Shown: positions 3,183-40,981 of the stretch, piece after piece
Layout of the letters: every line of letters starts with the position of its first letter
Position numbering within the stretch: position 1 is the first letter of the stretch
NCBI GenBank assembly: GCA_002011735.1
Contig: MTOQ01000013.1
Coordinates: 1-56,553, forward strand
Origin: Nitrospirae bacterium JdFR-81
Lineage (GTDB): Bacteria; Nitrospirota; Thermodesulfovibrionia; UBA6902
Direction: 5' to 3'
DNA length: 56,553 bases
Notes under the pieces: generated by a model
Database searches by the model: none
Told to the model about the DNA's origin: nothing
The model's input: only the letters and a program-made list of their open reading frames with translations
Made by a program: the position numbers and the translations under genes

Positions 3183-3731
3183 ATGAAGAAGCTTCTTATC
3201 ATCATGATGGTCTTTCTGGCATTTGGCTGTGCCAAAAAGTATGTGAAGGGAACCGCTGAGACCCCTGCCAAGGAAGAGGCAGTGACCAAGGGGGCAGGAG
3301 CGCCTGAGAAGGAAGTGGTGGAGGAGGGGCTCTATGCCACCAAGGAGGGCAAGGTTGGCGAGGAGGAGATCATCGAGGCAGGTATGGCTGGAAGGGAGGA
3401 CGTCTTCAAAGATATATACTTTGATTTCGACAGGTATGACATAAGGGCTGACGCAAGGCCTGTGCTTGATGAGATAGCCACATGGATGAATAAGAATACG
3501 GATACAAACATCATCATAGAGGGGCACTGTGACGAGAGGGGGACAAACGAATACAACCTCGCACTGGGCGAGAAGAGGGCAAAGGCAACAAGAGACTACC
3601 TCATCTCCCTTGGCGTCTCTCCATCAAGGATCACCATTGTCACATATGGTGAGGAGAGGCCTCAGTGCACCGAACATAATGAAGCCTGCTGGCAGCTGAA
3701 CAGAAGGGCACACTTTGTGGTGACGGAGTAG
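3183..3731 (+). CDS. pal: Pal, peptidoglycan-associated OmpA-like lipoprotein
   Basis: A 182-residue lipoprotein: the signal peptide ends in a lipobox (LAFGC, Cys at about 16), followed by a low-complexity acidic linker (about 20-75) and an OmpA-family domain (about 80-180). Family motifs include YFDFDRYDIR, EGHCDERGTNEYNLALGEKR and the C-terminal NRRAHF. It anchors the outer membrane to peptidoglycan and interacts with TolB and TolA. An ideal AGGAGGT site precedes the ATG. A gap of 35 bases after tolB shows no terminator, so the gene is probably co-transcribed. Confidence 0.95.
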   Translation: MKKLLIIMMVFLAFGCAKKYVKGTAETPAKEEAVTKGAGAPEKEVVEEGLYATKEGKVGEEEIIEAGMAGREDVFKDIYFDFDRYDIRADARPVLDEIATWMNKNTDTNIIIEGHCDERGTNEYNLALGEKRAKATRDYLISLGVSPSRITIVTYGEERPQCTEHNEACWQLNRRAHFVVTE

Positions 3732-3743
3732 CCGTTGTCTCCT

Positions 3744-4607
3744 ATGTATAGGTTCAAGGGTCATACATGGCTGAGCCCTGTGCCATTCCTGCTGATCCTC
3801 ATCCTCTATAGATGCGCCTCCTCAGGCCTTGGCATCGCCACATCAGATGATGTGGGTAAACTCCAGTGGATGCTCAATAACCTGAGGACCGATCTGAACG
3901 CCCTTGAAAAGAGGGTGAGTGCCCTTGAGGCCCGACTGCCCGAGGGCCAGGACATCAAGCAGATACAGGATTCACAGAAGGCGACGGCAAAGTCCGTATC
4001 AGACCTGCTCTTCAAGACCCAGTCCCTCACCACCGAGCTACAGAGGATAACAGGTAGGCTTGAAGAGCTGAGCCATTCACAGAGGATGCTGAACAAGAGG
4101 GACGAGGCCATACAGAACGAACTGGCCAAGATCAAGCTCTCCATTGCGGATATGAAGAAGAGGCTCGATCAGTTAACCCCTCCCAAGACCCCTGAAGAGG
4201 CCGAAAGACCTCAGGAGGCAAAGACGGAAAAGAAAACCGATGATAAAGGACTGTATATGTCAGCATATGAGACATTCAAGGCAGGGAAGATGGACGAGGC
4301 AAGAAGGATGTTCAACACCCTCCTCAGGGAATACCCTGACAGTGAATATGCTGACAACGCCAGGTTCTGGATCGGTGAGACCTACTATAAAGAAGGCAAA
4401 TATGAGGACGCCATACTCGCATATGAGGAGCTGTTCAGGAAGAACCCTGACAGTGAGAAGGTCCCTGGTGCCATGCTCAAGCAGGGGCTTGCCTTCTATG
4501 CATTAAAGGACAGAAAGACGGGCAGGCTCATCCTGGAGAGGTTGATCGAGAAGTTCCCCGATTCAGAGCAGGCAAGGATCGCAAGGAAGAAGCTCAAGGA
4601 ACACTGA
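3744..4607 (+). CDS. cpoB: CpoB/YbgF, Tol-Pal associated TPR lipoprotein-like protein
   Basis: The ATG at 3744 gives 287 residues; a TTG at 3735 in the same frame would add three. The N-terminus is hydrophobic and reaches a Cys (LILYRC), suggesting a lipoprotein instead of the usual soluble periplasmic form. A long coiled coil (about 40-130) with heptad Leu/Ile forms the trimerisation region, then a linker and a C-terminal YbgF TPR domain (about 165-285) with repeats of the type AYETFKAGKMDEARRMF. CpoB links Tol function to septal peptidoglycan synthesis. It sits directly after pal, the usual place. No strong ribosome-binding site is visible. Confidence 0.88.
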   Translation: MYRFKGHTWLSPVPFLLILILYRCASSGLGIATSDDVGKLQWMLNNLRTDLNALEKRVSALEARLPEGQDIKQIQDSQKATAKSVSDLLFKTQSLTTELQRITGRLEELSHSQRMLNKRDEAIQNELAKIKLSIADMKKRLDQLTPPKTPEEAERPQEAKTEKKTDDKGLYMSAYETFKAGKMDEARRMFNTLLREYPDSEYADNARFWIGETYYKEGKYEDAILAYEELFRKNPDSEKVPGAMLKQGLAFYALKDRKTGRLILERLIEKFPDSEQARIARKKLKEH

Positions 4608-5593: not shown

Positions 5594-7980
5594 TGTTAGC
5601 GGTAACCCTATCCTTCATATGTGGTATAGCCATACATAGATTCCTCCCCCTGTTTCCCCTTTCAATCCTCACACTCGCTGCCATCTCGTTCCTGCTCATC
5701 TACAGGATCAACAGGAAGAGGGCATTGATTATAATGGCCTTTCTTGCCTTCGGGTTTATATACACATGGCTGAGATCAGAACCATATCCCGAGACGGATC
5801 TTCCAGATAGAGGGTCTTCACTGACAGGCATGATCAATGACGTCCCTGAGATAAAGGATGGAACATTAAGCCTTACAGTGGATCGGGTCTCTATAAATGG
5901 CATGAGGCTCGATGGAAGGGTCATGCTCTTTGCGGATGCACAGGAGATGAACCGTATACCGGAAAGCGGAGACATCATCACTGCATTCGTGAGGCTCAAA
6001 AGGCCGTTGATCTTCAAAAACCCAGGGGTATATACCTATGACCCGAGGAGGCGTGGAATCCTGGCATCAGGAAGTGTGTCATTCCTCAGGATAACAGGTT
6101 CAGCAGGAGGGCTGAGGAACGCTATTAACAATGAGAGACAGAGGCTTGGCTGGATAATAGACAGGAGCCTCTCCCCCCGGAGCGCATCGCTCATCAAGGC
6201 CATAATACCTGGCCTAAAGAGGGGGATAGATAAGGGGGTGAGGGACGACTTCAGCAGGACAGGCCTTGCCCATCTGCTCAGTATCTCCGGAACACACTTC
6301 GGTCTCCTTGCCTTTCTACTCTTTAAGGTGGTGAGGATGATCATAAGACTGTTTCCCCTGAGGATACTCAATAGACTGACCCTGTATGTAACACCCTCTC
6401 AGATATCCATATTATTGACCATGCCCGTCCTCCTGCTCTATGCAGGCATCTCAGGCGCAAGTATACCGACCATACGCTCACTCATCATGATCTCGATTTA
6501 CATGACCGCCCTGTTCATGGGTAGGAGGGATCAGTGGCTCAACTCCCTGTCCATCGCAGCGTTCATCATCCTGCTCTGGAACCCCTCTGCCCTCTTTGAG
6601 ATATCCTTTCTGCTCTCCTTCCTTGCTGTGCTCTCCATAGGGCTTGTGCTGGAGAGGATGGCACCCGTGCGTGAGGAGGCAGAGACCAGGAGAGAGGGGA
6701 TCATCAGGTATCTAAAGACCGCCTCCCTCATAACCCTCTCGGCCGTGCTTGGCACAGCACCATTTATAATCCTCTACTTCAAACAGTTCCCGATTATATC
6801 GCCTGTCACAAACCTCCTGATCACTCCGATCGTATGCTTTGTGATCCTCCCGCTTGGTTTTGTATCATGTTTCACAGCACTCATCCTTGGCCTAAGCTCA
6901 TTACCGTTCAATCATCTGATAGACTCCATCACAGGATTTACGATCAAGCTTGTGGGGCTCTTCGCAGATATACCGTTTGCAGGGGTGCACCTGCACAATC
7001 CCTCCCACCTTCTAATAGTGCTCTATTACCTCTCTATCATCTTAATAGTCATGCATAACCACAGGTTGAGGTTTCTTCCATTGGGTATGGTGATATTCCT
7101 CTTCCTCATAAGACCACACATCCATGGTCATGAAATGAGGATCACCATCCTTGATGTAGGTCAGGGAGACTCGTCGGTTATTGAACTGCCTGACGGCAGG
7201 GTGATGCTCATAGATGGTGGTCCACAGGGGAGTGATGCAGGGAGGAGGGTGGTTGCACCTTACCTCTGGTCAAGGGGCATAGGAGAGATCGACATCCTTG
7301 TCCTGAGCCATCCCCATTATGACCATTATGGGGGCCTCCTCTATATACTCGATAATCTCGACGTAGGAGAGGTATGGCTCAACGGAAGGTTTGTGGAGGA
7401 TGCATTGCCCTTCTTTGAGAAGCTCGTCGAAAAGAGCATACCATACAGGATACTGAGGAGAGGAGACTCATTCTCAACAGGAGACTACATGATCATCATC
7501 CTTCACCCATACGATGGCTTTTATGCAGACTCAGAAAGGGGAGGCTTCTCAGATGAAAACAACGATTCCCTTGTATTAAAGATACAGGCAGGGGACTTCT
7601 CCATGCTCTTCCCAGGGGACATAGAGTCAGAGGCAGAGAGGGACATCCTGCACCTTGGCAGGTGGTTAAGGAGTGATATAATCAAGGTCCCCCATCATGG
7701 CGGGAAGATCTCAAGCACACCAGGGTTTATTGCCTCTGTTGACCCCGATGTGGCGATTATAAGTGTCGGAGAGGGGAACACATTCAACCATCCCCACAGG
7801 GAGGCGATCGAGAGATACCTTCGGAGAGGTGTAAGACTCTACAGGACAGACAGAGACGGCGCCGTCATCATAACCACAAAGGATGGTGAATACTCAATAA
7901 AGACCTACAGAGACTATCAGTTCAAGGAAGTCTCTAACATATATGATGAGATACACAACCTCAAACTCCTCTATCACTGA
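5593..7980 (+). CDS. comEC: ComEC/Rec2 family DNA uptake channel
   Basis: A 795-residue polytopic membrane protein. It starts with two or three membrane helices and a soluble DUF4131 region (about 60-170), then the Competence domain with many helices (about 200-480; the motif HLLSISGTHFGLLAF is visible) and a C-terminal metallo-beta-lactamase-like domain (about 510-770) with the metal-binding motif SHPHYDHYGG. In transformable bacteria ComEC forms the inner-membrane channel for single-stranded DNA. The GTG start overlaps the moaA stop. All three domains are present, so the gene looks intact. No other competence gene is in the window, so natural transformation cannot be concluded. Confidence 0.93.
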   Translation: MLAVTLSFICGIAIHRFLPLFPLSILTLAAISFLLIYRINRKRALIIMAFLAFGFIYTWLRSEPYPETDLPDRGSSLTGMINDVPEIKDGTLSLTVDRVSINGMRLDGRVMLFADAQEMNRIPESGDIITAFVRLKRPLIFKNPGVYTYDPRRRGILASGSVSFLRITGSAGGLRNAINNERQRLGWIIDRSLSPRSASLIKAIIPGLKRGIDKGVRDDFSRTGLAHLLSISGTHFGLLAFLLFKVVRMIIRLFPLRILNRLTLYVTPSQISILLTMPVLLLYAGISGASIPTIRSLIMISIYMTALFMGRRDQWLNSLSIAAFIILLWNPSALFEISFLLSFLAVLSIGLVLERMAPVREEAETRREGIIRYLKTASLITLSAVLGTAPFIILYFKQFPIISPVTNLLITPIVCFVILPLGFVSCFTALILGLSSLPFNHLIDSITGFTIKLVGLFADIPFAGVHLHNPSHLLIVLYYLSIILIVMHNHRLRFLPLGMVIFLFLIRPHIHGHEMRITILDVGQGDSSVIELPDGRVMLIDGGPQGSDAGRRVVAPYLWSRGIGEIDILVLSHPHYDHYGGLLYILDNLDVGEVWLNGRFVEDALPFFEKLVEKSIPYRILRRGDSFSTGDYMIIILHPYDGFYADSERGGFSDENNDSLVLKIQAGDFSMLFPGDIESEAERDILHLGRWLRSDIIKVPHHGGKISSTPGFIASVDPDVAIISVGEGNTFNHPHREAIERYLRRGVRLYRTDRDGAVIITTKDGEYSIKTYRDYQFKEVSNIYDEIHNLKLLYH

Positions 7981-8485
7981 TCATCCTCTTAATCCTCTCA
8001 ACCGCCTCCTCAGGGGTCTCCCTGTCTGTATGAATAATTAACTCCGGTTCTACCGGCTCCTCGTATGGCACGGTCCTGCCAGGGACAGGCCATCCCCTCT
8101 CGGCCTTTTTATATATATCCTTCGGTGCACCATGTGTCTCCATCCTCTGCCCTTCTCGTTTAATGCATGTCTCAATAGGACACTCCAGATAGACCTCAAA
8201 GAACTCAGGGATAACCGATCTTGCAAGCTCCCTCCACCTTCTCCTGTTTCCTGTGGCATCAATAACCACATTATGTCCTGCCTCATAGAGTTTCTTGGCG
8301 GTATAGACAATACTTCTATAAACATACTCCCTCTCTGTATCCGAGTAAGAAGGATCGGGCGTCACAATACTCCTCAGCTCATCCATATTCAGCACAACCA
8401 CATCCTCAAACCCATCCCTCAACCTGTATGCTATGGTGCTCTTGCCACTGCCTGGCAGACCCGTTATCCACATAACCCAAGGCAT
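7961..8485 (-). CDS. cysC: Adenylylsulfate (APS) kinase-like protein
   Basis: A 174-residue P-loop kinase from the chosen ATG. Walker A is GLPGSGKST (about residues 8-16); further features are VVLNMDELR, the DATGNRRRWRELAR segment and the GAPKDIYKKA / VPYEEPVEPELII region typical of APS kinases. It would phosphorylate adenylylsulfate to PAPS. The start at 8485 begins two residues before the first beta strand; in-frame ATGs further upstream (8548, 8593) add a non-homologous extension. A TATAAT box lies six bases upstream of this ATG, supporting it. The CysC family is close to other small-molecule kinases and there is no sulfurylase gene nearby, so substrate is inferred. Its 3' end overlaps comEC tail to tail by 20 bases. 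Confidence 0.8.
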   Translation of the reverse strand: MPWVMWITGLPGSGKSTIAYRLRDGFEDVVVLNMDELRSIVTPDPSYSDTEREYVYRSIVYTAKKLYEAGHNVVIDATGNRRRWRELARSVIPEFFEVYLECPIETCIKREGQRMETHGAPKDIYKKAERGWPVPGRTVPYEEPVEPELIIHTDRETPEEAVERIKRMISDRGV

Positions 8486-8491
8486 GGATAT

Positions 8492-8497
8492 ATTATA
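8492..8497 (-). promoter_or_regulatory. -10 box of the APS kinase gene, predicted leaderless
   Basis: TATAAT on the minus strand, separated by six bases from the ATG at 8485, which would place the transcription start on the A of ATG. No convincing -35 hexamer is seen at 16-18 bases upstream, and no Shine-Dalgarno sequence lies next to the ATG. It lies in the 61-base divergent gap before the DUF3187 gene. Confidence 0.45.
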
Positions 8498-8546
8498 TAC
8501 TTTTTCCTTTATCAATCTTCCCCCTTTTGTTAAAATTTTTATTGTC

Positions 8547-9500
8547 ATGAAGAAGACGATACTGACGATGTTATTGCTTGTCCTCCCCTTCACAAACGCC
8601 CAATCCTTTGATGGCCCCCTGCAGGTGAGAAATCAACTCCCCATATTCCTCCATGCTGACCAGCCCTATATCGAGAAGGCAGGGGTCGAGGACTCGCTCT
8701 CATTGAGCCTCTCCCACTCAAGCACATATATAGTGCAGGCCTCACAGGACTGGGTAATCAACCTGGACATGGAGACAACAGAACTCAACATGAGGCTTAA
8801 AAAGGTCGTTAACGGGATGGAGTTAAACATTGATGTGCCGTTATTAATCCTCAGCGATGGATTCATGGACGGCTTTCTTGATCTCTATCACAGCACATTC
8901 GGTTTTAACGACTATGGAAGACCGAACAGGCCATTAAACAGCTTTCTCTATGAGATAAAAAGGGAGGGGATAAGGATCATAAAGGGAGAAGAGGGGATCG
9001 GGCTCGGAGACATAAGGGTTGGAGTCAAGAGGTTATTATATTCAGGTGATGGATTAAACATAGGGGTCAGGGGCGGTGTGGAGCTTCCTACAGGAGATGC
9101 CGACAAGGGGTTTGGTAACGGAGGGCTTGATACAGACATCGCCTTACTGATAGACAAGGCAATATCAGGGAGGATCATGACCTACATTAATATCGGCGCC
9201 GTGCATACAGGCGACCTCAGGACATCAGAAAGGCTGACCCTCAGAGATTTCCTCTATGCCGGCATTGCCGTTGAGGGGATGGTAAACAGGAGACTGGGCC
9301 TCCTTGTCCAGCTCGAAGGACACCCCTCAATCTATCCCGAAACAGGCCTTGAGGCCGTTGATACATGTGCATGCCTTCTTGCATTCGGCGGCAGGTATTA
9401 CAGGGCAGAGGATACCATCGAGTTTTCGATCACAGAGGATATAAGTGCAGGCTCAGCGCCTGACTTTATTATTAACATCACATACAAAAAGGAGATTTAA
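8547..9500 (+). CDS. DUF3187 family protein, probable outer-membrane beta-barrel
   Basis: A 317-residue exported protein. The signal peptide is MKKTILTMLLLVLPFTNAQS, and the rest consists of alternating strands such as GDIRVGVKRLLY, LNIGVRGGVELPTGDADKGFGNGG and RIMTYINIGAVHTGD. The segment ELPTGDADKGFGNGGLD is characteristic of DUF3187. Function is unknown; a barrel in the outer membrane is inferred from the strand pattern. The start at 8547 was chosen because it is followed by a clean signal peptide; longer in-frame extensions run into the divergent APS kinase gene. It ends one base before the next gene. Confidence 0.72.
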   Translation: MKKTILTMLLLVLPFTNAQSFDGPLQVRNQLPIFLHADQPYIEKAGVEDSLSLSLSHSSTYIVQASQDWVINLDMETTELNMRLKKVVNGMELNIDVPLLILSDGFMDGFLDLYHSTFGFNDYGRPNRPLNSFLYEIKREGIRIIKGEEGIGLGDIRVGVKRLLYSGDGLNIGVRGGVELPTGDADKGFGNGGLDTDIALLIDKAISGRIMTYINIGAVHTGDLRTSERLTLRDFLYAGIAVEGMVNRRLGLLVQLEGHPSIYPETGLEAVDTCACLLAFGGRYYRAEDTIEFSITEDISAGSAPDFIINITYKKEI

Positions 9501-9501
9501 G

Positions 9502-9864
9502 ATGCAACATGAAAGACTCATTCATGACTGGATGGTCTCACACCTCAAACATCGTCTATCAAGAGATTACAGGGATATCAGGGTCAACCACGGAGGAGAA
9601 CAGAAGAACGAGTTTAAGGGGCACTATCCTGACCTCATCCTCGGCAACCATGGGCTCGTCCTTGCAGTCATGGAGGTCGAGACAGAGGAGAGTATAACCC
9701 CTCAAAAGGCCGAGGAATGGAAGGAGCTCTCAGGCCTTGGTGTCAAACTGATCCTCATGGTCCCAAAGCCTTCAAGGGCAAAGACCCTTGACCTCCTCTG
9801 GAAGGCAGGGATAGCAGACAGGGTATCTGTGGGCACATATGAGATAAATATAAATATGCCGTGA
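9502..9864 (+). CDS. Small conserved protein with nuclease-like fold, function unknown
   Basis: A 120-residue soluble protein. The ATG at 9502 has a good AAGGAGA site upstream and starts two bases after the DUF3187 stop. The order of elements (GHYPDLIL at about residues 41-48, then LAVMEVETE at about 55-63, then a helix KAEEWKEL and strand VKLILMVP) resembles the PD-(D/E)xK nuclease core, but the usual Lys of the E-x-K motif is Thr or Glu here (EVETE), so catalysis is doubtful. I cannot assign a function. It is the last gene before the WYL-controlled operon, with 258 bases between them, and seems to belong to the DUF3187 transcript. Confidence 0.65.
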   Translation: MQHERLIHDWMVSHLKHRLSRDYRDIRVNHGGEQKNEFKGHYPDLILGNHGLVLAVMEVETEESITPQKAEEWKELSGLGVKLILMVPKPSRAKTLDLLWKAGIADRVSVGTYEININMP

Positions 9865-10063
9865 ATACCGATTCACATTCGCCCTGTCTCAATTGACAAA
9901 TCCTATTGTGGAGTGTGAGGGCTGATCGAATTAATCCAGAAACGGGACATTAGAAGAAGAGATAACTACCAAAAAATCTTTAAAATTCCTTCGTACTGAT
10001 AACCCCCACCTAAATCTTCCCTGGTTTGAAGAGATAATCCCGGGCCAATTATGCTGATTCAAA

Positions 10064-10111
10064 CTGCCACACTGGTGGCAGTGAGGGTATAATATAATAC
10101 CCTAAAAGGGT
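10064..10111 (+). promoter_or_regulatory. Promoter and candidate operators of the WYL-McrBC operon
   Basis: An inverted repeat CTGCCAC-ACTG-GTGGCAG (10064-10081) lies where the -35 element would be, just upstream of a consensus TATAAT (10088-10093). A second dyad, ACCCT-AAA-AGGGT (10099-10111), lies across the predicted transcription start. Two dyads around a promoter directly in front of a WYL regulator gene suggest autoregulation. The regulator-operator link is inferred from position. Confidence 0.5.
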
Positions 10112-10122
10112 GGTATGGGATA

Positions 10123-11046
10123 ATGTCATACAAGTTTGACTCCCTCATGATAATCCTCAACAAGCTTGAGAACAAAGAGAAGGTCACTGTCAGATCCCTC
10201 ATGGAGGAGCTTGAAGTCAGTGAGAGGACTGTTCATCGGTATCTCAATACCCTCCAGATCGGCGGATTCCCCATCAAATATGACAGGAAAAGAGAGACCT
10301 ACTGTTTTGAAGAAGGCTATACCCTGAGCAAACCCGACCTTACCCTTGAGGAGAGCCTTGCCTTTGCCCTCTCGAAGAAACTGATGAAGAGCCTTGGCCC
10401 AGGTTTTGAGAAACGACTCTCAGACATAGAGAAGAAACTCTCCATGAAGGATGCAAAACTCCAGGAGCAGTTTTTATTGAAAGGGCCTGAACAGCCAGAG
10501 GCAATAAAAGGCATGATTGAAGAGATAACCGGTGCAATCAAAAACTTCAGGGTGATAGAACTCACCTATAAAAGTGCCTATTCTGACAGAGAATCTGTGA
10601 GAAAGGTCGAACCATACTATCTTTTCTTCGACAATGACATATGGTATCTGAGAGGATATTGCCATTTAAGAAAAGAGCTCCGGACCTTTGCCCTCGACAG
10701 GGTGATATCCGTAAGGCCACTGAACAAACATTTTGTACCCGAGAAGATATCACCTGATGAAGACATCTCAGGGGCCTTTGGCCCTGTGGTAGGTGGCAAA
10801 CCGGTAGAAGTAATCCTAAGATTTGATGCCCCTATCAAACCCTTTGTCAGCAGAAAGAAGTGGCATCGTAGCCAGAAGTTAAAGGAATTAGAGGACGGGG
10901 GAGTTGAGATGAGATTCAGGGTCAATGGCTTAGCAGGTATAAAGCCATGGATTTATCAATGGTTACCCCATGTTAAAGTGATAGCCCCTGAGGAGCTAAA
11001 GAGGATAATGAGGGCAGAACTCAAAAGAGCCATTAAAAACATATAA
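10123..11046 (+). CDS. HTH-WYL domain transcriptional regulator
   Basis: A 307-residue DeoR/YafY-type regulator. An N-terminal winged helix-turn-helix (about residues 5-65; SLMEELEVSERTVHRYLNTL) is followed by a WYL domain (about 135-215) with YKSAYSDRESVRKVEPYYLFFDNDIWYLRGYCHLRKELRTFALDRV and a C-terminal WCX-like extension (about 220-300). WYL domains bind nucleic acid or nucleotide ligands and often control anti-phage operons, as in the BrxR/CapW group. It is the first gene of a tightly spaced six-gene operon and probably represses its own promoter. Base composition is close to that of the housekeeping genes. Confidence 0.88.
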   Translation: MSYKFDSLMIILNKLENKEKVTVRSLMEELEVSERTVHRYLNTLQIGGFPIKYDRKRETYCFEEGYTLSKPDLTLEESLAFALSKKLMKSLGPGFEKRLSDIEKKLSMKDAKLQEQFLLKGPEQPEAIKGMIEEITGAIKNFRVIELTYKSAYSDRESVRKVEPYYLFFDNDIWYLRGYCHLRKELRTFALDRVISVRPLNKHFVPEKISPDEDISGAFGPVVGGKPVEVILRFDAPIKPFVSRKKWHRSQKLKELEDGGVEMRFRVNGLAGIKPWIYQWLPHVKVIAPEELKRIMRAELKRAIKNI

Positions 11047-13214: not shown

Positions 13215-14597
13215 ATGGAAAATTTGAGAAATACGGTGAGGCGATTAACAGAAGAAGAGAAAAAACAAGCCATTGCCGCTGCCAAGAGAGAAAAAGCTAA
13301 GGGGTCGCGTAGTCAAGGAACATCTAACATCCCAGTAGAAGTAGAATATAAGGGGAAAATATATGTTGGAACAGGGAAAGAAGTATTTCGAATACTAAAA
13401 AAAGATAGTGGAGTAAAGTCGTCAACTCTTACGGCTCTTGTAAAAAAGATTGGTGCTAAGTGGCTATTTAATCCATTGGCTGAAGAAGGCGAAATAAGTA
13501 ATATACGTACAGAAACAGAAAAACATCTTAAGGAGACAAAGATACAATCAGATTCAGAAGGTGTTTATAAACTACTTGAAAAGAAAAAACAGATCATTCT
13601 CTATGGGCCACCTGGGACGGGGAAGACATATAGTACAAAGGAGATTGCCCTTGAGCTGTTTACTGAAGAAGAGGAAGAGTACGAAGAATTGCGTGACAAA
13701 GGCAGAATCGAATTCATCACCTTTCATCCCTCCTATAGCTATGAAGAATTCATAGAAGGCATCACTGTCGAGACAGAAAGAGAGGGAGTTGCTACCGAAA
13801 GTGTCAAGTATAAACTCAGACCTGGGATTTTTAAAGAGATGTGCAAGAAAGCCTTAGGATCTCTTATTAATTTACCAGATGAGGAAATTGAGGAGAAGAC
13901 ATGGCGTGAAGTTTTTGATGCCTATATAGAGAAAGAAGTTGTGGATTTTGAAGATGCACCTCCATATGTCCTTATCATAGACGAGATCAACAGGGGTGAT
14001 ATGGCAAAGATATTTGGAGAGCTCATAACCCTGCTTGAGGCTGACAAACGCCTTGGAGAAGATAATGAATTAATTGCCACTCTGCCCACATCTGGCGACA
14101 GATTCGGCGTTCCACCAAATCTCTACATCATCGGCACAATGAACACAGCAGACAGAAGCATCGCCCTCCTGGATGTGGCATTGAGAAGGAGATTTGGTTT
14201 TATCGCCATGGAACCAGACCTTGAGATGTTAAGAAGTCATATAGAGAATACTACGGATATAGAAGAGAACACGAAATCTCTCCTTACTCACTCAATTAAG
14301 GCCATTGAAAAGATAAACCAAAAGATATGCCATGACAGGGCCATAGGCAGGGACAAACAGATAGGCCATTCCTATTTATTGAAAGTTAAAAATACAGAAG
14401 ATCTGGCCATGGTCTGGCGACATGAGATACTGCCCCTCCTTGAAGAGTACTGCTACGGAGACTATCAGAAGATCAACCAGATACTCTTTAATAGTGATTC
14501 AGACACTGAGTGGATAAGTCAATGTGAAGGGATTAAAGATATCACAGCCAATAACATCAGAGACATGCTCAATGAGATAATTTCTGATGGTGAATAA
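13215..14597 (+). CDS. mcrB: McrB-like AAA+ GTPase subunit of a modification-dependent restriction system
   Basis: A 460-residue protein. The N-terminal about 120 residues are basic and unassigned, in the position of the McrB DNA-recognition domain. The AAA+ domain follows: Walker A GPPGTGKT (about residue 132), Walker B with LIIDEINRGDMAKIFGELI (the McrB EINR form) and sensor/arginine region MNTADRSIALLDVALRRRF. McrB hexamers bind target DNA, hydrolyse GTP and drive the McrC nuclease. AGGAGAGG precedes the ATG. It overlaps mcrC by 11 bases. The first about 125 codons are AT-rich like the preceding gene, while the AAA+ part is closer to host composition, suggesting a domain swap. Target specificity cannot be read from sequence. 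Confidence 0.9.
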   Translation: MENLRNTVRRLTEEEKKQAIAAAKREKAKGSRSQGTSNIPVEVEYKGKIYVGTGKEVFRILKKDSGVKSSTLTALVKKIGAKWLFNPLAEEGEISNIRTETEKHLKETKIQSDSEGVYKLLEKKKQIILYGPPGTGKTYSTKEIALELFTEEEEEYEELRDKGRIEFITFHPSYSYEEFIEGITVETEREGVATESVKYKLRPGIFKEMCKKALGSLINLPDEEIEEKTWREVFDAYIEKEVVDFEDAPPYVLIIDEINRGDMAKIFGELITLLEADKRLGEDNELIATLPTSGDRFGVPPNLYIIGTMNTADRSIALLDVALRRRFGFIAMEPDLEMLRSHIENTTDIEENTKSLLTHSIKAIEKINQKICHDRAIGRDKQIGHSYLLKVKNTEDLAMVWRHEILPLLEEYCYGDYQKINQILFNSDSDTEWISQCEGIKDITANNIRDMLNEIISDGE

Positions 14598-15873
14598 TAG
14601 CAGTATCATAGAAGTCCCAGAATACAAATCAATAAAGATAGAACCTCTAAGTGATAGAGAGATTGAGTATCTCAGGCAGGACTGCTTTAACTACAGGGAG
14701 GAAGGAAAGTCACCTTATAAAGTAAGGCGTTTGAAAGAGAAAGACGAGATTGAAAACACCTCCTACTCTGGTATCATCCAGCTTGATAACTTCAGGATTC
14801 ATTTCTCCACAAAGGTCAGCACAAACCTGTTCTACATGCTCACCTTTCTTAAAGACGAAAAAGCGTTCCTCTATGATTCAGAAAGGATTATTGAGATAAA
14901 AGAAGGCGAATGCTTCTTCGACATCATTGGCAGGCTCTTTCTGAACGAACTGGAAAAGATCTTTGAGAGAGGCTTCTATAAGAGATATGTCAGAAAAGAA
15001 GAAAATCTTGCCTTCCTTAAAGGCAAGCTATTGATTAAACATCAGATAAGAAACGATTTCACCAGAAGGCCAGAGTTTTACTGCTCATATGAAGACCTGA
15101 CATACGACAACCTCGAGAATCGCATAATCCTGCGTGCCGCAACCCTCCTGATTCCACTTATCCGTTTTAATGAAGAGATAAAGGGTGACCTCCTTAAATA
15201 TACCCATCTCCTCAGAGAAGAAGTCAGCCTCATTGATGTGAATCCCGAAGACTGCAATCGGATAAGGTTTCACAGGCTCAATGACTACTATGAAGCCATA
15301 ATCCAGCTCTCAAAGGTTATTCTTCAGTATCACTTCATCAGGCATACACAGAAGGGACTCTCCAAGGGGTTCAATTTTATTGTAAACATGAACAGAGTAT
15401 ACGAGGACTTTATCACCTCTGTTATCGAAGACATCGTCTCAACTGATGAGGAATTTCAGGACTTCGTGGTGGAGAAACAGGCAAGATTTGACAGTCTTGT
15501 AAGAGAGAGAACGATTATCACAAGACCCGACATAATCCTCCGCAGGAAGAACACCGAAGAGTATCCTGTTATTATTGACGCCAAGTACAAGAGGGAGGAG
15601 GACAACACAGACTATTATCAGGTGATAGCCTATGCTATGGCAATACCTACAGCAAAGGTATGTTGCTTAATTTATCCAGCAGAAGAAGAAAGGATTGAGA
15701 CAAGGATTTTAACTCTTAAAAGAAAGGCCTTTGACAGCGCAAGAGAAGATGTAAGATTACATGCAATCAAGATCAATTTATTCTGGGAAGAAAAGACGGG
15801 ATTTAAAGATTATATAACGAAGGTAAAGAGAGAATTAAAAGGCGAATTATTAAATGTAGTAGAATTCCATTAA
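14587..15873 (+). CDS. mcrC: McrC-like nuclease subunit
   Basis: A 428-residue McrC family protein. The N-terminal region carries beta-rich segments (about 1-120) including FRIHFSTKVSTNLFYMLTFL; the middle contains EDLTYDNLENRIILRAATLL; the C-terminal PD-(D/E)xK nuclease core is TRPDIILRRKN with IIDAKYKRE (about residues 320-345), in which D and D-A-K are the expected catalytic residues. McrC is stimulated by McrB to cut DNA. It is translated from a start inside the end of mcrB (11-base overlap), as usual for this pair. Everything needed for activity appears present. Confidence 0.9.
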   Translation: MVNNSSIIEVPEYKSIKIEPLSDREIEYLRQDCFNYREEGKSPYKVRRLKEKDEIENTSYSGIIQLDNFRIHFSTKVSTNLFYMLTFLKDEKAFLYDSERIIEIKEGECFFDIIGRLFLNELEKIFERGFYKRYVRKEENLAFLKGKLLIKHQIRNDFTRRPEFYCSYEDLTYDNLENRIILRAATLLIPLIRFNEEIKGDLLKYTHLLREEVSLIDVNPEDCNRIRFHRLNDYYEAIIQLSKVILQYHFIRHTQKGLSKGFNFIVNMNRVYEDFITSVIEDIVSTDEEFQDFVVEKQARFDSLVRERTIITRPDIILRRKNTEEYPVIIDAKYKREEDNTDYYQVIAYAMAIPTAKVCCLIYPAEEERIETRILTLKRKAFDSAREDVRLHAIKINLFWEEKTGFKDYITKVKRELKGELLNVVEFH

Positions 15874-18211: not shown

Positions 18212-18718
18212 ATGATGGAGAGGGTGATAACGATATTGACATTACTGATCACATTTATTGCGGTTTCAGGTGTTGTTTATGCAGGCTCAGTGAATGGCAC
18301 ACTTGATGTTACAGCGAATGTCATCGGATTTTGTGATGTGATGGTCACTGGCGTGGACTTTGGGAATGTAGTGGCGGATGGCTCCCTCTATTATGCCAAT
18401 GGGGATGTATCTGTGGCATGTGACACAGGGGTACCTTATAACATTGCTATGGATGCAGGTATGTATTTTGATGGGATCAGCAGGCAGCTGAGCGACGGTT
18501 TTAGTGGTTTCCTGCATTACCACCTCTTTAAGGATGGGACTTACACTCAGGAGTATGGTGATTCCGACTATGATAATACCTTCCCATTGGGATCCAGTCT
18601 TTCAGATATAGGTGATGGGACATGGCAGGCACACACGGTCTATGGCCAACTGGTAACTCTGGGCGGAGAGCCCGTGGGTAGTTACGCTGATACCGTTACG
18701 GTAACCGTCTACTATTAA
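18212..18718 (+). CDS. SCPU-domain (spore coat U-like) secreted pilin subunit
   Basis: A 168-residue secreted protein. The signal peptide ends at about VVYAGS (residue 24), followed by an SCPU domain rich in strands: SVNGTLDVTANVIGFC, then CDTGVPYNIAMDAG, GFLHYHLFKDGTYTQEYGD and a C-terminal donor-strand-like ADTVTVTVYY. Two cysteines (about 45 and 70) could form the usual disulfide. Such proteins are subunits of Csu-type (archaic) chaperone-usher fibres. A perfect GGAGGTAA precedes the ATG; a start one codon later is equally possible. It is the first gene of a three-gene operon and the only subunit encoded here. Confidence 0.85.
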   Translation: MMERVITILTLLITFIAVSGVVYAGSVNGTLDVTANVIGFCDVMVTGVDFGNVVADGSLYYANGDVSVACDTGVPYNIAMDAGMYFDGISRQLSDGFSGFLHYHLFKDGTYTQEYGDSDYDNTFPLGSSLSDIGDGTWQAHTVYGQLVTLGGEPVGSYADTVTVTVYY

Positions 18719-18732
18719 AAAATAAAAATTAG

Positions 18733-18759
18733 ATGGGGCTTCCACATTGGAAGCCCCAT
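18733..18759 (+). other. Perfect 12-bp intercistronic hairpin after the pilin gene
   Basis: ATGGGGCTTCCA-CAT-TGGAAGCCCCAT: an uninterrupted 12-bp stem with a three-base loop, starting 14 bases after the pilin stop and ending 17 bases before the chaperone start. It has no T-run after it, so an attenuator or mRNA-stabilising/processing hairpin fits better than a full terminator. It would favour excess subunit over chaperone and usher. Confidence 0.7.
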
Positions 18760-18776
18760 GATGAATGGAGTGGGGG

Positions 18777-19562
18777 ATGAGACAACCTCACTTTTTTATC
18801 CTTCTTATTTTTCTTCTATCCCTTCCTGTAAATGTAGATGGAAGTTCACTCAAGATATCCCCCCTGAAAGTATCGCTCGGTGAAGGCAGACGATCCGCTG
18901 TATTGAGCCTTACGAATACAGGAGAGGAGGCGATAACCCTCCAGGTTTCTGCCAAGAGGTGGCTTCAGGACGAGACGGGCAAGGATATATACAGCGATAC
19001 TGAGGATATTATATTCTTCCCCAGGATATTCCAGATAGAGAAGGGTAAAACGAGAATCATAAGGGTGGGTTACCAAGGGGCAGTAGATGTGCAGGTGGAG
19101 AAGGCATACAGACTGTTTATTGAAGAATTGCCTGTAACAGCTCCCCGGGGGGAGATACTGAGGTTTGTCTTGAGATTCGCTGTGCCTGTTTTTATAACAC
19201 CTTCCAGAGAGGTCAGGAGACCGATTATTGAGAAGGTAGGCCTTGCTCATGGTAGTGTTAGAGTGAAGATAGGGAATGCGGGTAACACACACCTGCTCAT
19301 GAGAAAGCTCGTTATAACCGGCGTTGGGGCATCTGGGAGGGAGGTCTTTTCAAGGGAGACGGCAGGATGGTATATCCTTGAAGGCTCATCAAGGGCTTTT
19401 ATTGTGAATATCACGGAACAGGAGTGTCTGGAGGCAGATGTAATCAAGATAAAGGCCACGGGTGAGCACCTGAATCTTGAGGCCAAGCTGGACCTTAAGC
19501 CAGAGTACTGCAAAGCGTCTGAGAGGAAGGGACGGGCTCATACAGGAAGAAAGGCAGGATGA
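18777..19562 (+). CDS. Periplasmic fimbrial chaperone (PapD-like)
   Basis: 261 residues from the ATG at 18777, which has GGAG/GGGGG upstream and begins a clear signal peptide (FFILLIFLLSLPVNVDG); the in-frame ATG at 18765 lacks a site. Two Ig-like domains follow: domain 1 (about 25-145) with SLKISPLKVSLGEGRRSAVLSL and IIFFPRIFQIEKGKTRIIRVG, in which the conserved Arg/Lys pair anchors the subunit C-terminus, and domain 2 (about 150-240). The closing tail is basic. It would shuttle the SCPU subunit to the usher, whose gene overlaps it by four bases (ATGA). Confidence 0.88.
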   Translation: MRQPHFFILLIFLLSLPVNVDGSSLKISPLKVSLGEGRRSAVLSLTNTGEEAITLQVSAKRWLQDETGKDIYSDTEDIIFFPRIFQIEKGKTRIIRVGYQGAVDVQVEKAYRLFIEELPVTAPRGEILRFVLRFAVPVFITPSREVRRPIIEKVGLAHGSVRVKIGNAGNTHLLMRKLVITGVGASGREVFSRETAGWYILEGSSRAFIVNITEQECLEADVIKIKATGEHLNLEAKLDLKPEYCKASERKGRAHTGRKAG

Positions 19563-21904
19563 CCGTAGAAGGCCGTTCTTGGAAACCACACCTTATAAGT
19601 CTTGCCTTATTAAATCTGCTCCTTCTTTCCTCATCATTGTATGCAACCAATAGAGTAGTAATGAAGGTCTATCTGAACACCGTAGAGATGGGAGAATATA
19701 TCTTCATCCTCGGGCCTGAGGATACCGTGTTTTTCCCTATGAGGGATCTGCTTGATATGGGTTTCGACAGGCCACCCGAAGATGCGGAAGTAGAGATAGA
19801 AGGAGAGAGGTATATTTTATTAAACAAGATCCAGGGCGTAGGGGTTGAGATAGATAAGGAGAGGGTGATACTCCATATCACCGCTGAACCTCATCTCCTC
19901 AAAAAGCATTTGTTCGATCTCTCATTCAAGGGACCGAAGGATGTCTTATATGTAAGAAATGATTCCGCGTTTCTAAATTATTACCTTGATTATCTAACGG
20001 GTGATGTAGATTTTGGATCGTTGTCCCTTTCTCTTGAGACCGGGGTGAATATAGGGGGTTATTTCGGTCATTCCAATTTTTCTTATCTGAATTCGAATAG
20101 TGAGGATAGATTTGTAAGATTGATGACGAGCATAACAAAGGATGACCCTGTGACACTCCGAAGGTACGTACTTGGTGACTCCTTTGCTACCTCAGGGCTG
20201 TATCTCAGTGGAGGATTAATCCTTGGGGGAGTGGGTATCTCGAAGAACTATAAGATAAATCCTTATTTTATAAAGGTGCCAAGTCTCACCCTCTCGGGTG
20301 CTGTCCAGACACCATCAGACATTGAAATCTATGTGGATGATTACCTCATAAGAAGAGAGAGAGTGCCTCCAGGAGAGTTTGAGTTCTTAAACCTTATAGA
20401 GAGGCCGGGTGCGGGCATATCCACCATATTGATAAAGGATGCATATGGACGTGTGAAAAAGGTGGATACCCCGTTTTATATCTCTTCCTCCCTCCTCAGG
20501 CCAGGCGTCCAGGAGTACAGTTACACCCTGGGATTCAAGAGGGAGGATTTTGGCAAAGAGAGTTTCAGATACACCGAACCCTTGTTGATAGGTTTTCATC
20601 GACTTGGGCTTACTGATACCCTAACGGTAGGAGCCGGGATAGAAGGTGGCAGGGAAGGATTTAATCTTTCACCCTCGATCACCTTTCTCCTCGGACTGGC
20701 AGGAGAGATGCATATCTCTGGTGCAATAAGTAACCATAATGGTCAAATTGGCTATGGAGCATTATTGGGTTATAGTTATACCAGCAGAAAGAAGAGTCTG
20801 AGGATTTCCGTCCGTGGCTTCAGCAGAGGATACTCAAATGTCTCTCTCCTTCCTTCGCAGGACAAGCCCTGGTTTGAGGGTAATATAAACTCTGGATATA
20901 ACCTTGGAAGGCTTGGAACCATCTCGGTAGGGTTTTCAATGGGAGATTATTATGCCTCTACAGAGGTAAAAAGATTCTCGATAAACTATACAAAGAGACT
21001 CAGAAAAGACCTCTCCTTTCATCTCAGGTTCACCAGGACAGAAACAGATGAGGTGGTTAATAAGGTCTTTATAGGGCTGAGAATCTCTCTGGGAGGGCAT
21101 CATTCAGGGGAGGCAAAATACACATCGGACGGGGAAGTCTCAGAGCAGACCCTGTTGATCTACAAGGATCCACCGTTCAAGAAAGGCATAGGATACAGGC
21201 TGAATATTGAAAGGGTAGCCTCTGAGACAGAAAATGGAGAGGTGAATGGTGATGTTCTCATACACTACCGTTTTCCTGCGGCCATCAGCAGAATTAATTA
21301 CAGGCATATCTCCGGAGAGGATGTCTATAATCTTGGCGTAACAGGAGGGATAGTGTTTATAAAGGACTCCCTGTTTTTAACGCGCCCTATTACAGACAGT
21401 TTTGTACTTGTCAGGGTGGATGGACTCGAAGGGGTAAGGGTATATTATAGCAACAAGGAGGTAGGTCGGACGAACAGAAAAGGGGATCTCATTGTGCCAT
21501 ACATCCTCTCATACCATCCCAATAACATCTCCATTGAGCCTGAAGATATACCTGTGCAATATGAATTAAAAGCAGTGAAGAAGTATGTTACAACCCCCTA
21601 TAGGGGTGGTGGTATCATGGAATTTGAGACAAGAGCGCTTCAAGGTTTTATAGGCCACCTCTTTATGCTTCAGAAAGGCAGAAAGGAGCCTGCTGAATAT
21701 GGAAGACTCGAGATTAAGGCAGAAGACAGCGTTATCAAAACAGTGACAGGTAAGGGTGGAGAGTTTTATCTTGAGAACCTCCCACCAGGGAAATTCCCTG
21801 CGAGGCTCTTCCTTAAGGATATGGAATGTGATTTTGAGTTAACCATACCACACAGCAACAAGGTGATTGTGAATATTGGAGAGGTGATATGTCATATGAA
21901 TTAG
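19559..21904 (+). CDS. Outer-membrane usher (FimD/PapC-like, archaic type)
   Basis: A 781-residue protein with a hydrophobic export segment (about residues 10-30), an N-terminal chaperone-binding domain (about 35-125), a beta-barrel with internal plug region (about 135-640; YVDDYLIRRERVPPGEFEFLNL is usher-like) and C-terminal domains ending with a GEFYLENLPPGKFPARL module. Ushers assemble and export fibre subunits across the outer membrane. It overlaps the chaperone gene by four bases. Length is typical of Csu-type ushers. No adhesin gene follows; the next gene has its own promoter. Confidence 0.88.
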   Translation: MTVEGRSWKPHLISLALLNLLLLSSSLYATNRVVMKVYLNTVEMGEYIFILGPEDTVFFPMRDLLDMGFDRPPEDAEVEIEGERYILLNKIQGVGVEIDKERVILHITAEPHLLKKHLFDLSFKGPKDVLYVRNDSAFLNYYLDYLTGDVDFGSLSLSLETGVNIGGYFGHSNFSYLNSNSEDRFVRLMTSITKDDPVTLRRYVLGDSFATSGLYLSGGLILGGVGISKNYKINPYFIKVPSLTLSGAVQTPSDIEIYVDDYLIRRERVPPGEFEFLNLIERPGAGISTILIKDAYGRVKKVDTPFYISSSLLRPGVQEYSYTLGFKREDFGKESFRYTEPLLIGFHRLGLTDTLTVGAGIEGGREGFNLSPSITFLLGLAGEMHISGAISNHNGQIGYGALLGYSYTSRKKSLRISVRGFSRGYSNVSLLPSQDKPWFEGNINSGYNLGRLGTISVGFSMGDYYASTEVKRFSINYTKRLRKDLSFHLRFTRTETDEVVNKVFIGLRISLGGHHSGEAKYTSDGEVSEQTLLIYKDPPFKKGIGYRLNIERVASETENGEVNGDVLIHYRFPAAISRINYRHISGEDVYNLGVTGGIVFIKDSLFLTRPITDSFVLVRVDGLEGVRVYYSNKEVGRTNRKGDLIVPYILSYHPNNISIEPEDIPVQYELKAVKKYVTTPYRGGGIMEFETRALQGFIGHLFMLQKGRKEPAEYGRLEIKAEDSVIKTVTGKGGEFYLENLPPGKFPARLFLKDMECDFELTIPHSNKVIVNIGEVICHMN

Positions 21905-29719: not shown

Positions 29720-29875
29720 ATGAAAAGGAAGAGGGACATACTCTTTCTCATATATTTATTGGTTATCATAGTCCTTGCCGTGATATACTTTACAGTGCCT
29801 GAGAGGAGGATGTTCCTTGAAGACCAGATCGAACGGTACCGCGAGTTTTTCAGGCTTGTGAGGTCGCTTGTATAA
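29720..29875 (+). CDS. 51-residue single-pass membrane peptide
   Basis: ATG directly after the TAG of the GT-C gene. The product has a basic start (MKRKRD), one membrane helix (about residues 7-25, LFLIYLLVIIVLAVIYF) and a charged amphipathic tail rich in Arg and Phe. It has no family I recognise. Its 3' end overlaps the next gene by eight bases if the TTG start is used. Position and coupling suggest a small partner of the membrane glycosyltransferases. Confidence 0.55.
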   Translation: MKRKRDILFLIYLLVIIVLAVIYFTVPERRMFLEDQIERYREFFRLVRSLV

Positions 29876-30560
29876 GGTGCGTATAGCAGTAATAATACCG
29901 GCCCTTAATGAAGAGAAGACCCTCCCCCGTGTCCTGGGTGACATCCCGCGTGATCTTGTTGATGAGGTGGTGGTTGTTGACAATGGCAGCACCGACAGGA
30001 CGCCCGAGATAGCGAGGCAGTGGGGGGCCACGGTGCTCTTTGAGTCAAGGAGGGGATATGGCTATCCCTGCCTGAGGGCCATAGAGTATCTCAAGGGGAG
30101 GGAACCTGATATAGTGGTGTTCCTTGATGGTAACTACAGCGATCACCCTGATGAGATGGAGGTGCTTATAAGGCCGATTATGGAGGAGGGCTATGACCTC
30201 GTCCTTGGCTCAAGGGTGATGGGAGAGGCAGAGGAGGGGGCACTCAGGTTGCCTGTCCGTTTTGGCAACGGGCTTGCGACCTTCCTTATAAGGATACTCT
30301 ACGGATTCAGATACACAGACCTTGGCCCATTCAGGGCGATAAGGTTCAAGAGGTTGCTTGAGCTGGATATGGGAGACAACCTTGGCTGGACAGTGGAGAT
30401 GCAGGTCAAGGCCGTTAAGAGGGGATTCAGGATAAAGGAGGTCCCTGTGAGCTATCGCAGGGGCACGGGGCGGTCAAAGTTTACAGGAGATATCAGGGGT
30501 ATATTCCGTATCGGATACAGGATACTGAGGGCGGTCTTCAGAAACCTAACCTTCCATTAA
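29868..30560 (+). CDS. GT2 family glycosyltransferase (dolichol-phosphate-sugar synthase-like)
   Basis: 230 residues from TTG (29868, with GAGG four bases upstream) or 227 from GTG (29877). A GT-A fold: IAVIIPALNEEKTLPRVL at the start, VVVVDNGSTDRT, then VVFLDGNYSDHPDEM (DxN/D acceptor region) and DLGPFRAIRFKRLLELDMGDN with the C-terminal YRRGTGRSKFTG. This resembles polyprenyl-phosphate glucose/mannose synthases without C-terminal membrane helices. It could supply the lipid-linked sugar used by the GT-C protein upstream. Its end overlaps the convergent selenoprotein gene by 15 bases. Confidence 0.82.
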   Translation: MYKVRIAVIIPALNEEKTLPRVLGDIPRDLVDEVVVVDNGSTDRTPEIARQWGATVLFESRRGYGYPCLRAIEYLKGREPDIVVFLDGNYSDHPDEMEVLIRPIMEEGYDLVLGSRVMGEAEEGALRLPVRFGNGLATFLIRILYGFRYTDLGPFRAIRFKRLLELDMGDNLGWTVEMQVKAVKRGFRIKEVPVSYRRGTGRSKFTGDIRGIFRIGYRILRAVFRNLTFH

Positions 30561-31127
30561 CAGCTCTATCAATCTCTTCATCTCATCAGTATCCCATTCC
30601 CTGTAACCAACGCTCAGGCCGATCAGTCTACCTTCTCTGTCGATGAGGAACTTTGTCGGTGTTGACCTTACCCTGTAGAGCATGCTCACCCTTGCATCGC
30701 TGTCAAGGAGGTTGGGGTATGTGATCCCGTGCCTCTTGAGGAGGGCCGAGACCCTGTCCCTCTCCTCCTCTATATCTATGCCGATGATGACAAATGCTCT
30801 GCCCTCAAAGTGCTGATAGAGCCTCTCAAGGGAAGGCAACTCCTTCCTGCACCATGGTCACCATGTGGCCCAGAAGCTCAGCAGGATCACATTACCCCTG
30901 TACTCCCTCAGGTTCACCATGCGTCCATCGATGGACAGGAGTTCAAACTCAGGGGCAGGTGTGGCCTCATCAATGGGCACGATATTCATTGAGTTCATTA
31001 ACTCTGACAGGGGTCCTCCTGCTGTGTCCCTGGCCTTTCCTGGGCCCTGTTTCTCCTCACACCCATGGAGTGATGCAAAGATGATGAGGATGATGGTTAT
31101 GTGGAGGAATCTATTGATTATCCGCAT
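30546..31127 (-). CDS. TlpA/ResA-like thiol-disulfide lipoprotein with selenocysteine (UxxC)
   Basis: One frame of 194 codons with a single internal TGA (30860-30858). The N-terminal half is a lipoprotein signal ending in LHGC, then a Redoxin start (PAPEFELLSIDGRMVNLREY) and FWATW; the TGA follows and then PWCRKELPSLERLY. In every TlpA/ResA relative the residue after FWATW is the nucleophilic Cys of CxxC, so the motif here is U-P-W-C with Sec at position 90. The second half is a complete thioredoxin fold with the cis-Pro segment STPTKFLIDREGRLIG. A SECIS-like hairpin follows the TGA. Start chosen at the lipoprotein signal, 13 bases after the rnfB stop. It probably reduces periplasmic disulfides or c-type cytochromes. 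Confidence 0.85.
30831..30860 (-). promoter_or_regulatory. Recoded UGA and bacterial SECIS-like hairpin
   Basis: On the minus strand the UGA (30860-30858) is followed by ten bases, then GGAAGG-AGTTG-CCTTCC (30847-30831), a perfect six-pair stem with a five-base loop. Exactly 16 bases lie between UGA and loop, and G is the second loop base. Bacterial SECIS elements are known to need a G among the first two loop bases and a spacing of about 16-37 bases, so both criteria are met, the spacing at its lower limit. Confidence 0.7.
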
Positions 31128-31140: not shown

Positions 31141-32346
31141 TTAAGTGCCGACAGGCTGGCCCTCTGTCGAGGCGGCTGCCTTTGCCTTCTGGCGGGCTGC
31201 CTTCTTTGCCTCAAAGGCCATCTTGACCTCAGGATAGTTGATCGTCCCCTCTATGGCAAGCACAGGACATTTTGATGTGCAGATGCCACATCCAATGCAC
31301 CTCTCCTGGTCTATTACATGCCTCTTCTTCCTCTCGCCTGATGCCGCATTCACAGGGCAGACCTTGGTGCATGTGGTGCAGCCGATACATTTCTCTGTGA
31401 CATGGGCCTTTGGCCTTTGTGGTATGTAGTCCATTATCGCATTTGTGGGGCACTTCCTGACACACAGACCGCATACCTTGCACTTATCAAGGTTTATCCT
31501 GGAGAGGTTATCAGCCATCTCAGCCGCATTGTATGGACAGACCTTCACGCACATACCGCAGCCGATACAACCTATAAGGCAGTTCTTCTTTGTCACCGCA
31601 CCCTTGTCCTTTGAATGGCACCTCACAAGCACCTCTTTTGCAAGGGGCAGTATCTCTATGACATTCTTTGGGCACGCCTTTGCACAATTCCCGCAGGCGG
31701 TGCACTTTGAGGGGTCAACAACAGGGATGCCATCATCACCCATCTTTATCGCATCAAACGGGCATGCCTTTACACATGTCCCGTAACCAAGACACCCGTA
31801 TACACAGGACTTGTCCCCTCCACTGGCAAGCACCGCTGCCCTGCAGTCGAGGATACCCTCATACTTGAACCTCCTTGTGGCCTTTGACGAGCCACCCTGA
31901 CACATCACCCTGGCGATCTTTGGCTCTGTCTCAGCGACCTCCTTACCTGTTATGATGGCTATTGCCTTTGCAGTCGGCTCCCTTCCAGGGGCGCATAGGT
32001 TTGGTGGCACATTCGGATCAGCGACAACCGCCTCTGCATACTGCCTGCAACCAGGATAGCCGCATGCCCCGCAGTGTGCATGGGCGAGTACATCCAGCAC
32101 CTGTTCAACCCTCGGGTCTGTCTTTACATCGAACTTCTTTGCGGCAAAGGCAAGGCCAAGGCCAAAGAGCGCACTTATGCCTGCCATGAAGATGGCGGCA
32201 AACTTGAGGACAGCCACAAGGTCAACACTCTCCTTTGCCTCCACACCACCACCAACGCCTGCATAAATGGTGGGGCTCCAGCATAGCAGTAGCACGATGG
32301 TGATAGCGAATATCATTACCCCTCTATGGCCCTTCATCTCCAACAC
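31141..32346 (-). CDS. rnfB: RnfB, polyferredoxin subunit of the Rnf complex
   Basis: A 401-residue subunit, longer than E. coli RsxB (about 190). A hydrophobic signal-like helix (about 10-30) and a second membrane helix (about 45-65) precede the Fe-S domain CGACGYPGCRQYAEAV with its fourth Cys in NLCAPG. Six further 4Fe-4S motifs follow, including CVYGCLGYGTCVKACP, CTACGNCAKACP, CLIGCIGCGMCVKVCP, CKVCGLCVRKCP, CIGCTTCTKVCP and CIGCGICTSKCP. RnfB accepts electrons from ferredoxin. GTG (32346) or ATG (32337) may start it. It ends the rnf order C-D-G-E-A-B, with the selenoprotein gene 13 bases downstream. Confidence 0.94.
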   Translation of the reverse strand: MLEMKGHRGVMIFAITIVLLLCWSPTIYAGVGGGVEAKESVDLVAVLKFAAIFMAGISALFGLGLAFAAKKFDVKTDPRVEQVLDVLAHAHCGACGYPGCRQYAEAVVADPNVPPNLCAPGREPTAKAIAIITGKEVAETEPKIARVMCQGGSSKATRRFKYEGILDCRAAVLASGGDKSCVYGCLGYGTCVKACPFDAIKMGDDGIPVVDPSKCTACGNCAKACPKNVIEILPLAKEVLVRCHSKDKGAVTKKNCLIGCIGCGMCVKVCPYNAAEMADNLSRINLDKCKVCGLCVRKCPTNAIMDYIPQRPKAHVTEKCIGCTTCTKVCPVNAASGERKKRHVIDQERCIGCGICTSKCPVLAIEGTINYPEVKMAFEAKKAARQKAKAAASTEGQPVGT

Positions 32347-40465: not shown

Positions 40466-40981
40466 ATGAGATACCGGGGGATCATCCTGATCGTCTTGCT
40501 CGCCCTGGCATTGATAGCCATCGTGTTCCTTCCGAGTGAGAGGTCATACATGACCGTGGCAGCTGTGGGAAAGCCAGCACCTGACTTTGAACTCAGGGAC
40601 TCTACAGGCAGGCTCTGGAGGCTCTCTGACCTCAGGGGCAAGGTGGTCTTTATAAACTTCTGGGCCACATGGTGCACAACCTGTAAGGCAGAGATGCCAT
40701 ATAAGGAGAGGCTCTACAAGAAGATGCAGGGCAGACCATTCCAGATGCTCGGGATACTCTTCAGGGATAACCCTCATAATCTTGTCCAGTATTTCAAGGA
40801 ACACAAAGTCAGTCCACCAACGCTTATAAGCCCTGACAACAAGGTTGCAAGGCTCTACGGGATAACCGGCGTCCCTGAGACCTTTATCGTGGATAAGAAC
40901 GGGATTATAAGGGAGAAGATAGTCGGTCCAAGGGAGTGGGACAGCCCTGAAAGCATCGCATTGATCGAGAAGTGGCTTTAG
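40466..40981 (+). CDS. TlpA/ResA-like membrane-anchored thioredoxin (CTTC)
   Basis: A 171-residue thiol-disulfide protein. A membrane anchor (about 5-22) precedes a redoxin domain with PAPDFELRDSTGRLWRLSDL, the active site FWATWCTTCKAEMP (two Cys, residues about 71 and 74) and the cis-Pro loop GVPETFIVDKNG. It would reduce periplasmic disulfides, for instance during cytochrome c maturation. It is an ordinary Cys relative of the selenoprotein encoded at 30546-31127. It lies between ispF and a QueG-like gene. Confidence 0.9.
   Translation: MRYRGIILIVLLALALIAIVFLPSERSYMTVAAVGKPAPDFELRDSTGRLWRLSDLRGKVVFINFWATWCTTCKAEMPYKERLYKKMQGRPFQMLGILFRDNPHNLVQYFKEHKVSPPTLISPDNKVARLYGITGVPETFIVDKNGIIREKIVGPREWDSPESIALIEKWL

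Follow-up and report, generated by a model that had tools for sequence, protein, structure and literature searches.

A predicted selenocysteine-containing TlpA/ResA-like lipoprotein next to rnfB belongs to a conserved selenoprotein clade of Nitrospirota

Introduction

The gene that follows rnfB on a contig of Nitrospirae bacterium JdFR-81 (MTOQ01000013.1; the 56,553 nucleotides analyzed are referred to here as the window) contains an in-frame TGA within a thioredoxin-like active-site motif. A preliminary description of this DNA read the TGA as selenocysteine (Sec) and proposed that the Rnf operon supplies or accompanies a selenium-based periplasmic thiol pathway. The locus thus raises three questions: whether the codon is read as Sec, what kind of protein is encoded, and whether its position behind rnfB is informative as to function. 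Selenoproteins of related types have been catalogued, including UxxC TlpA-like proteins (cd02966, 'thiol-disulfide isomerase-like') and a Prx-like thiol:disulfide oxidoreductase (PF00578, UxxC) (PMC13188914), as well as the 'Prx-like 1' selenoprotein of the GOS data (PMC2398784). In papers on selenoproteins or selenocysteine that also concern Nitrospirota, Thermodesulfovibrio or the Rnf complex, titles and abstracts contained nothing on this protein.

Results

The features of the locus are listed below, with coordinates given as positions in the window.

30546..31127, minus strand: selenoprotein coding sequence, predicted TlpA/ResA-like lipoprotein of 193 aa with Sec at residue 90 and stop codon TAG (from the translation with TGA as U, Pfam and AlphaFold)
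30858..30860, minus strand: Sec codon TGA, residue 90, first position of UPWC; the column is TGA in 39 of 39 clade members
30849..30851, minus strand: resolving Cys codon TGC, residue 93
31059..31127, minus strand: signal sequence with a lipobox-like LHGC (Cys23), read from the translation
30831..30847, minus strand: SECIS-type hairpin GGAAGG-AGUUG-CCUUCC
31141..32346, minus strand: rnfB, last gene of rnfCDGEAB and upstream neighbor (NCBIfam NF005503 and Pfam)
40466..40981, plus strand: Cys paralogue, ResA/TlpA-like, motif CTTC, outside the Sec clade in the tree

Translation from 31127 to 30546 runs from MRIINRF through LLSFWATW-U-PWCRKELPSLE to LIELLMEG and the stop and contains one in-frame TGA, at codon 90. 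A gap of 13 nt separates the gene from the rnfB stop on the same strand, and the gene is convergent with a glycosyltransferase gene (29868-30560). The sequence bears out the first description of the locus as to the TGA at the first position of the CxxC motif (FWATW-U-PWC), the spacing behind rnfB, and the retention of Cys in the paralogue at 40466. Elsewhere in the window are two genes resembling McrB/McrC-type restriction components by sequence (13215-15873) and what appears to be a chaperone-usher pilus cluster with subunit, chaperone and usher (18212-21904).

A protein search of 150 related whole genomes recovered 37 Sec genes from 33 genomes, that of the window included; two more came from 396 genomes of the phylum searched with a profile, for a total of 39 genes in 35 genomes with a TGA at the homologous site. 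Each of the 37 genes from the first search contains one in-frame TGA, always at the same place. In a tree of the 39 Sec proteins and 43 Cys homologues, a branch supported at 100/99 set off all Sec members, this split was present in all 200 bootstrap trees checked, and no Cys member was found inside the Sec clade. The inner forks of the tree are not all resolved, because the alignment offers few columns (148). The profile scores also separated the two groups, the lowest Sec match among the matches listed having 218 bits versus 175 bits for the best Cys match. The clade is spread over many Nitrospirota relatives and comprises a main and a second subclade. A second copy in genome G082 (L136) was considered as a Sec member and assigned to the Cys set, its TGA being a normal stop and its motif CPPC. 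The Cys homologues align with their Cys at residue 90, as the preliminary description had anticipated; its statement that UGA replaces Cys holds in comparison with distant paralogues, but not within the clade itself, in which all 39 members found have Sec. The locus shows the pattern by which bacterial selenoproteins are recognized: an in-frame UGA, flanked on either side by homologous sequence, at a site where homologues have Cys.

The sequence downstream of the TGA folds into a hairpin with a 6-bp stem (GGAAGG/CCUUCC) and a 5-nt loop (AGUUG), with a folding energy of -7.6 kcal/mol for the bare hairpin and -8.6 kcal/mol for the surrounding 24-base stretch. Published rules for bacterial SECIS elements specify a stem of 4-16 bp, a loop of 3-9 nt, a G at loop position 1 or 2, a distance of 16-37 nt from the UGA, and an MFE <= -7.5 (PMC13188914). 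The hairpin of the window satisfies these rules, as had been proposed, and the perfect stem and the G as second loop base were correctly described; the distance of 16 nt, originally assigned to the start of the hairpin, is that to the loop, the stem starting 10 nt past the UGA.

The hairpin is conserved across the clade. Stem positions 14-19 pair with positions 25-30 (counted from the T of TGA) in 36 of the 37 sequences of the first search, and the two sequences added later also pair fully, so that the hairpin is present in 38 of 39. The outer G-C pair is changed to A-U in three sequences, a compensatory change, and to G-U in two, while the first four loop bases, AGUU, are invariant (n=37). 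Not one of 48 Cys homologues allows all six pairs. Codons 94-99 read AGG AAG GAG TTG CCT TCC almost everywhere in the clade, with a synonymous codon identity of 0.71-1.0 versus the 0.18-0.52 predicted from codon usage. Across the gene, the three seven-codon windows with the highest synonymous conservation start at codons 92, 93 and 94, and the peak at codons 92-100 has an excess of 0.56, compared with 0.08 (SD 0.10) on average for all windows. Conservation of the TGA and hairpin in 38-39 of 39 members, together with absence of the hairpin from the 48 Cys homologues, excludes their occurrence by chance. A search of the genome with the Rfam model SECIS_1 gave no match; this result carries no weight, because the same model gave no match in control genomes either.

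The genome contains the machinery for Sec insertion, all four of the genes selA, selB, selC and selD being present. Contig C16 carries selB (4.9e-109), the tRNA-Sec (73.1 bits) and selA, the last identified by reading the ORF that adjoins selB; selD (4.1e-95) lies on contig C61 (G000:C61:7913-8827; L167 from 1489). The selD gene carries an in-frame TGA of its own at the catalytic site (KAAG-U-AAKLGP), followed directly by a hairpin, and so reads as a second selenoprotein of this genome. Taken together, these data make it nearly certain that the UGA at codon 90 of the gene behind rnfB encodes selenocysteine.

The encoded protein matches the Pfam families AhpC-TSA (1.6e-25) and Redoxin (9.8e-21); its score of 89.8 bits for PF00578, against a cut-off of 26, combined with the UPWC motif places it among the PF00578 proteins of UxxC type. 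The predicted structure and the fold search served only to place the fold. The AlphaFold model has a pLDDT of 89.4 with a low-confidence linker at residues 26-34, and the nearest PDB folds to it are ResA and 3kcm. Residues U90, C93, E96 and P157 are invariant in the alignment, and E96 has the spacing of Glu80 in ResA, for which the PDB includes an E80Q entry (2h1b). We take E96 to stand in the place of this Glu, which belongs to the active site of ResA. Most members of the main subclade retain the lipobox-like Cys; in the second subclade an N-terminal hydrophobic anchor replaces it. An AhpC-TSA/Redoxin domain, a CxxC-type motif, a cis-Pro position and a membrane anchor, the hallmarks of TlpA/ResA-like reductases, are all found, and translation, Pfam and fold agree with the initial assignment of a TlpA-like protein with a lipoprotein-type signal. 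The protein is therefore very probably a thiol reductase of the TlpA/ResA type.

Comparison with known families indicates both kinship and distinction. With ResA, CcmG and TlpA (PDB 1st9, 2h1b, 3kcm, 1jfu) the protein shares the fold (TM-score normalized to ResA about 0.9), the CxxC-type motif, the active-site Glu at +6, the cis-Pro position and the membrane anchor. It differs in having Sec where those proteins have the attacking Cys and in an extra conserved ELMxSMN helix ahead of the domain, and it does not reach the cut-off of the NCBIfam ResA subfamily NF002854 (102.5 bits versus 170). The WAxxUGC family NF041054 also consists of TlpA/ResA-like selenoproteins, but its motif is UGC rather than UPWC, its model is longer (354 positions), and the protein of the window scores only 54 bits against a cut-off of 300. 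The catalogued UxxC TlpA-like and Prx-like selenoproteins, compared by description, share the domain family, the UxxC motif and a bacterial SECIS just past the UGA; the proteins studied here differ in forming a Nitrospirota clade in which all members found have Sec and the hairpin sequence is near-fixed. The clade is new, whereas UxxC TlpA-like and Prx-like selenoproteins as such are already known.

We examined gene neighborhoods for indications of function. In the family to which the window's gene belongs, the Sec gene is mostly alone between unrelated genes, often beside M16-peptidase-like genes and an opposite-facing two-component pair (named from sequence). A different arrangement is found in two deeper-branching genomes, where the Sec gene closes a cluster of cytochrome c maturation (ccm) genes:

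L238 (G415), 1332-4104, and L239 (G325), 7642-10406: ccmA (ABC ATPase)-ccmB-ccmC-short ccmD-like ORF-Sec gene, with overlap of the ccmD stop and the Sec gene start

The same order occurs in G143, with a gap, and in G082 the Sec gene is followed by ccmH, a Cys ccmG-like gene, ccmE and ccmF. This recurring context points to cytochrome c maturation, but it belongs to the other subclade and not to the window's family. The genome of the window has ResB (System II) and no CcmF above the cut-off. It also has no CcdA or DsbD above the Pfam cut-off (96% complete genome), whereas one is found in 49 of the 53 genomes searched. Heavy-metal and DsbC-like genes are located close to some Sec copies (G096, G142, G002b). 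At three Sec loci (L157, L164 and L130, from G142, G082 and G018), the Sec gene is preceded at a distance of 150-250 nt by the gene for a large membrane protein of 917-965 aa, NosR/NapH-like by its cysteine motifs.

The association with Rnf was not conserved. The first search yielded 36 Sec loci besides that of the window, and none of these had an Rnf gene in its flanks (1.5-9 kb, some ending at contig ends), nor did the two loci found later (G415, G325). The rnfC gene was found in 50 of 53 genomes searched, including 33 of 33 high-quality ones, and it also occurs in genomes that gave no Sec gene in the search (e.g. G009, G019, G024). In the single-contig genomes G012 and G041, Rnf lies about 1 Mb from the Sec gene. 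Conversely, in 16 rnf regions read, no thioredoxin-like or thiol gene followed rnfB in any of the 14 relatives with a readable rnfB flank. One rnfC (G007:C14:46246-47464) is split over two frames, perhaps by an assembly frameshift. As far as sampled, the adjacency to rnfB occurs in this genome alone, and it says little about function.

Discussion

Our preferred interpretation, to which we assign a probability of roughly 0.6, is that the protein is an envelope selenothiol reductase of the ResA/CcmG type with apocytochrome c as its most likely substrate, cytochrome c maturation being its main role. SelB and tRNA-Sec would read the UGA at codon 90 as selenocysteine by means of the hairpin just downstream, a step for which the sequence makes a very strong case. 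The protein is predicted to have a TlpA/ResA thioredoxin fold and to be held at the membrane's outer face by a lipid or N-terminal anchor. As judged from the alignment and by analogy with ResA, Sec90 would attack a disulfide in a periplasmic partner and Cys93 would resolve the mixed selenylsulfide with the assistance of Glu96. The disulfide would most likely be that of apocytochrome c haem sites, although other envelope thiols may also serve, and the protein would take the ResA/CcmG/CcsX role beside the ResB-type maturation machinery of the genome. Its placement behind rnfB would reflect a local rearrangement. Three observations weigh against assignment to cytochrome c: the ccm linkage is found in the other subclade while the genes of the window's family are mostly alone, CcdA/DsbD did not exceed the Pfam cut-off in this genome, and the Cys paralogue at 40466 could itself do the job of ResA.

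A general envelope role with no special tie to cytochrome c is about half as probable, and would involve repair of oxidized or metal-bound thiols, TlpA-like assembly of copper sites, or peroxide defense. The isolation of the gene in most genomes and its proximity to heavy-metal and DsbC-like genes in some are consistent with such a role, as is the precedent of TlpA, known in complexes with ScoI and CoxB that are among the PDB matches; the position in the ccm operon of G415 and G325, with the same order in G143, argues against it. It is very improbable that Rnf supplies electrons to the selenothiol lipoprotein or is matured by it. The 13-nt same-strand gap and the lack of CcdA/DsbD above the cut-off speak for such a link, but the adjacency occurs at one of the Sec loci examined, Rnf is present without the Sec gene or far removed from it, and no thiol gene lies behind rnfB in the 14 relatives, so that this lack of conservation largely refutes a role for Rnf. 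Finally, although the standard code reads TGA as stop, a pseudogene or a miscalled TGT/TGC can be dismissed given the same TGA in 39 genes, a frame open on both sides and a conserved hairpin, and an assembly error at the Sec codon is ruled out by the independence of these 39 genes.

Returning to the ResA/CcmG-type interpretation, a broader and more tentative proposal, which we consider possible but rather unlikely, is that the clade as a whole represents the selenium counterpart of ResA/CcmG, with Sec fixed throughout a Nitrospirota class and the gene placed in the ccm operon of some members. Ordinary annotation would split genes of the clade at the UGA. The proposed link between selenium thiol chemistry and Rnf can be dropped. 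What emerges in its place is a well-supported, lineage-wide selenoprotein clade for which no Cys form was found, whereas for most selenoproteins Cys homologues are far more numerous. The ccm operon context in relatives suggests, in a form that can be tested, that cytochrome c assembly makes use of selenium, and if the clade does constitute a Sec-only ResA/CcmG arm, then respiratory cytochrome assembly in these lineages would depend on selenium.
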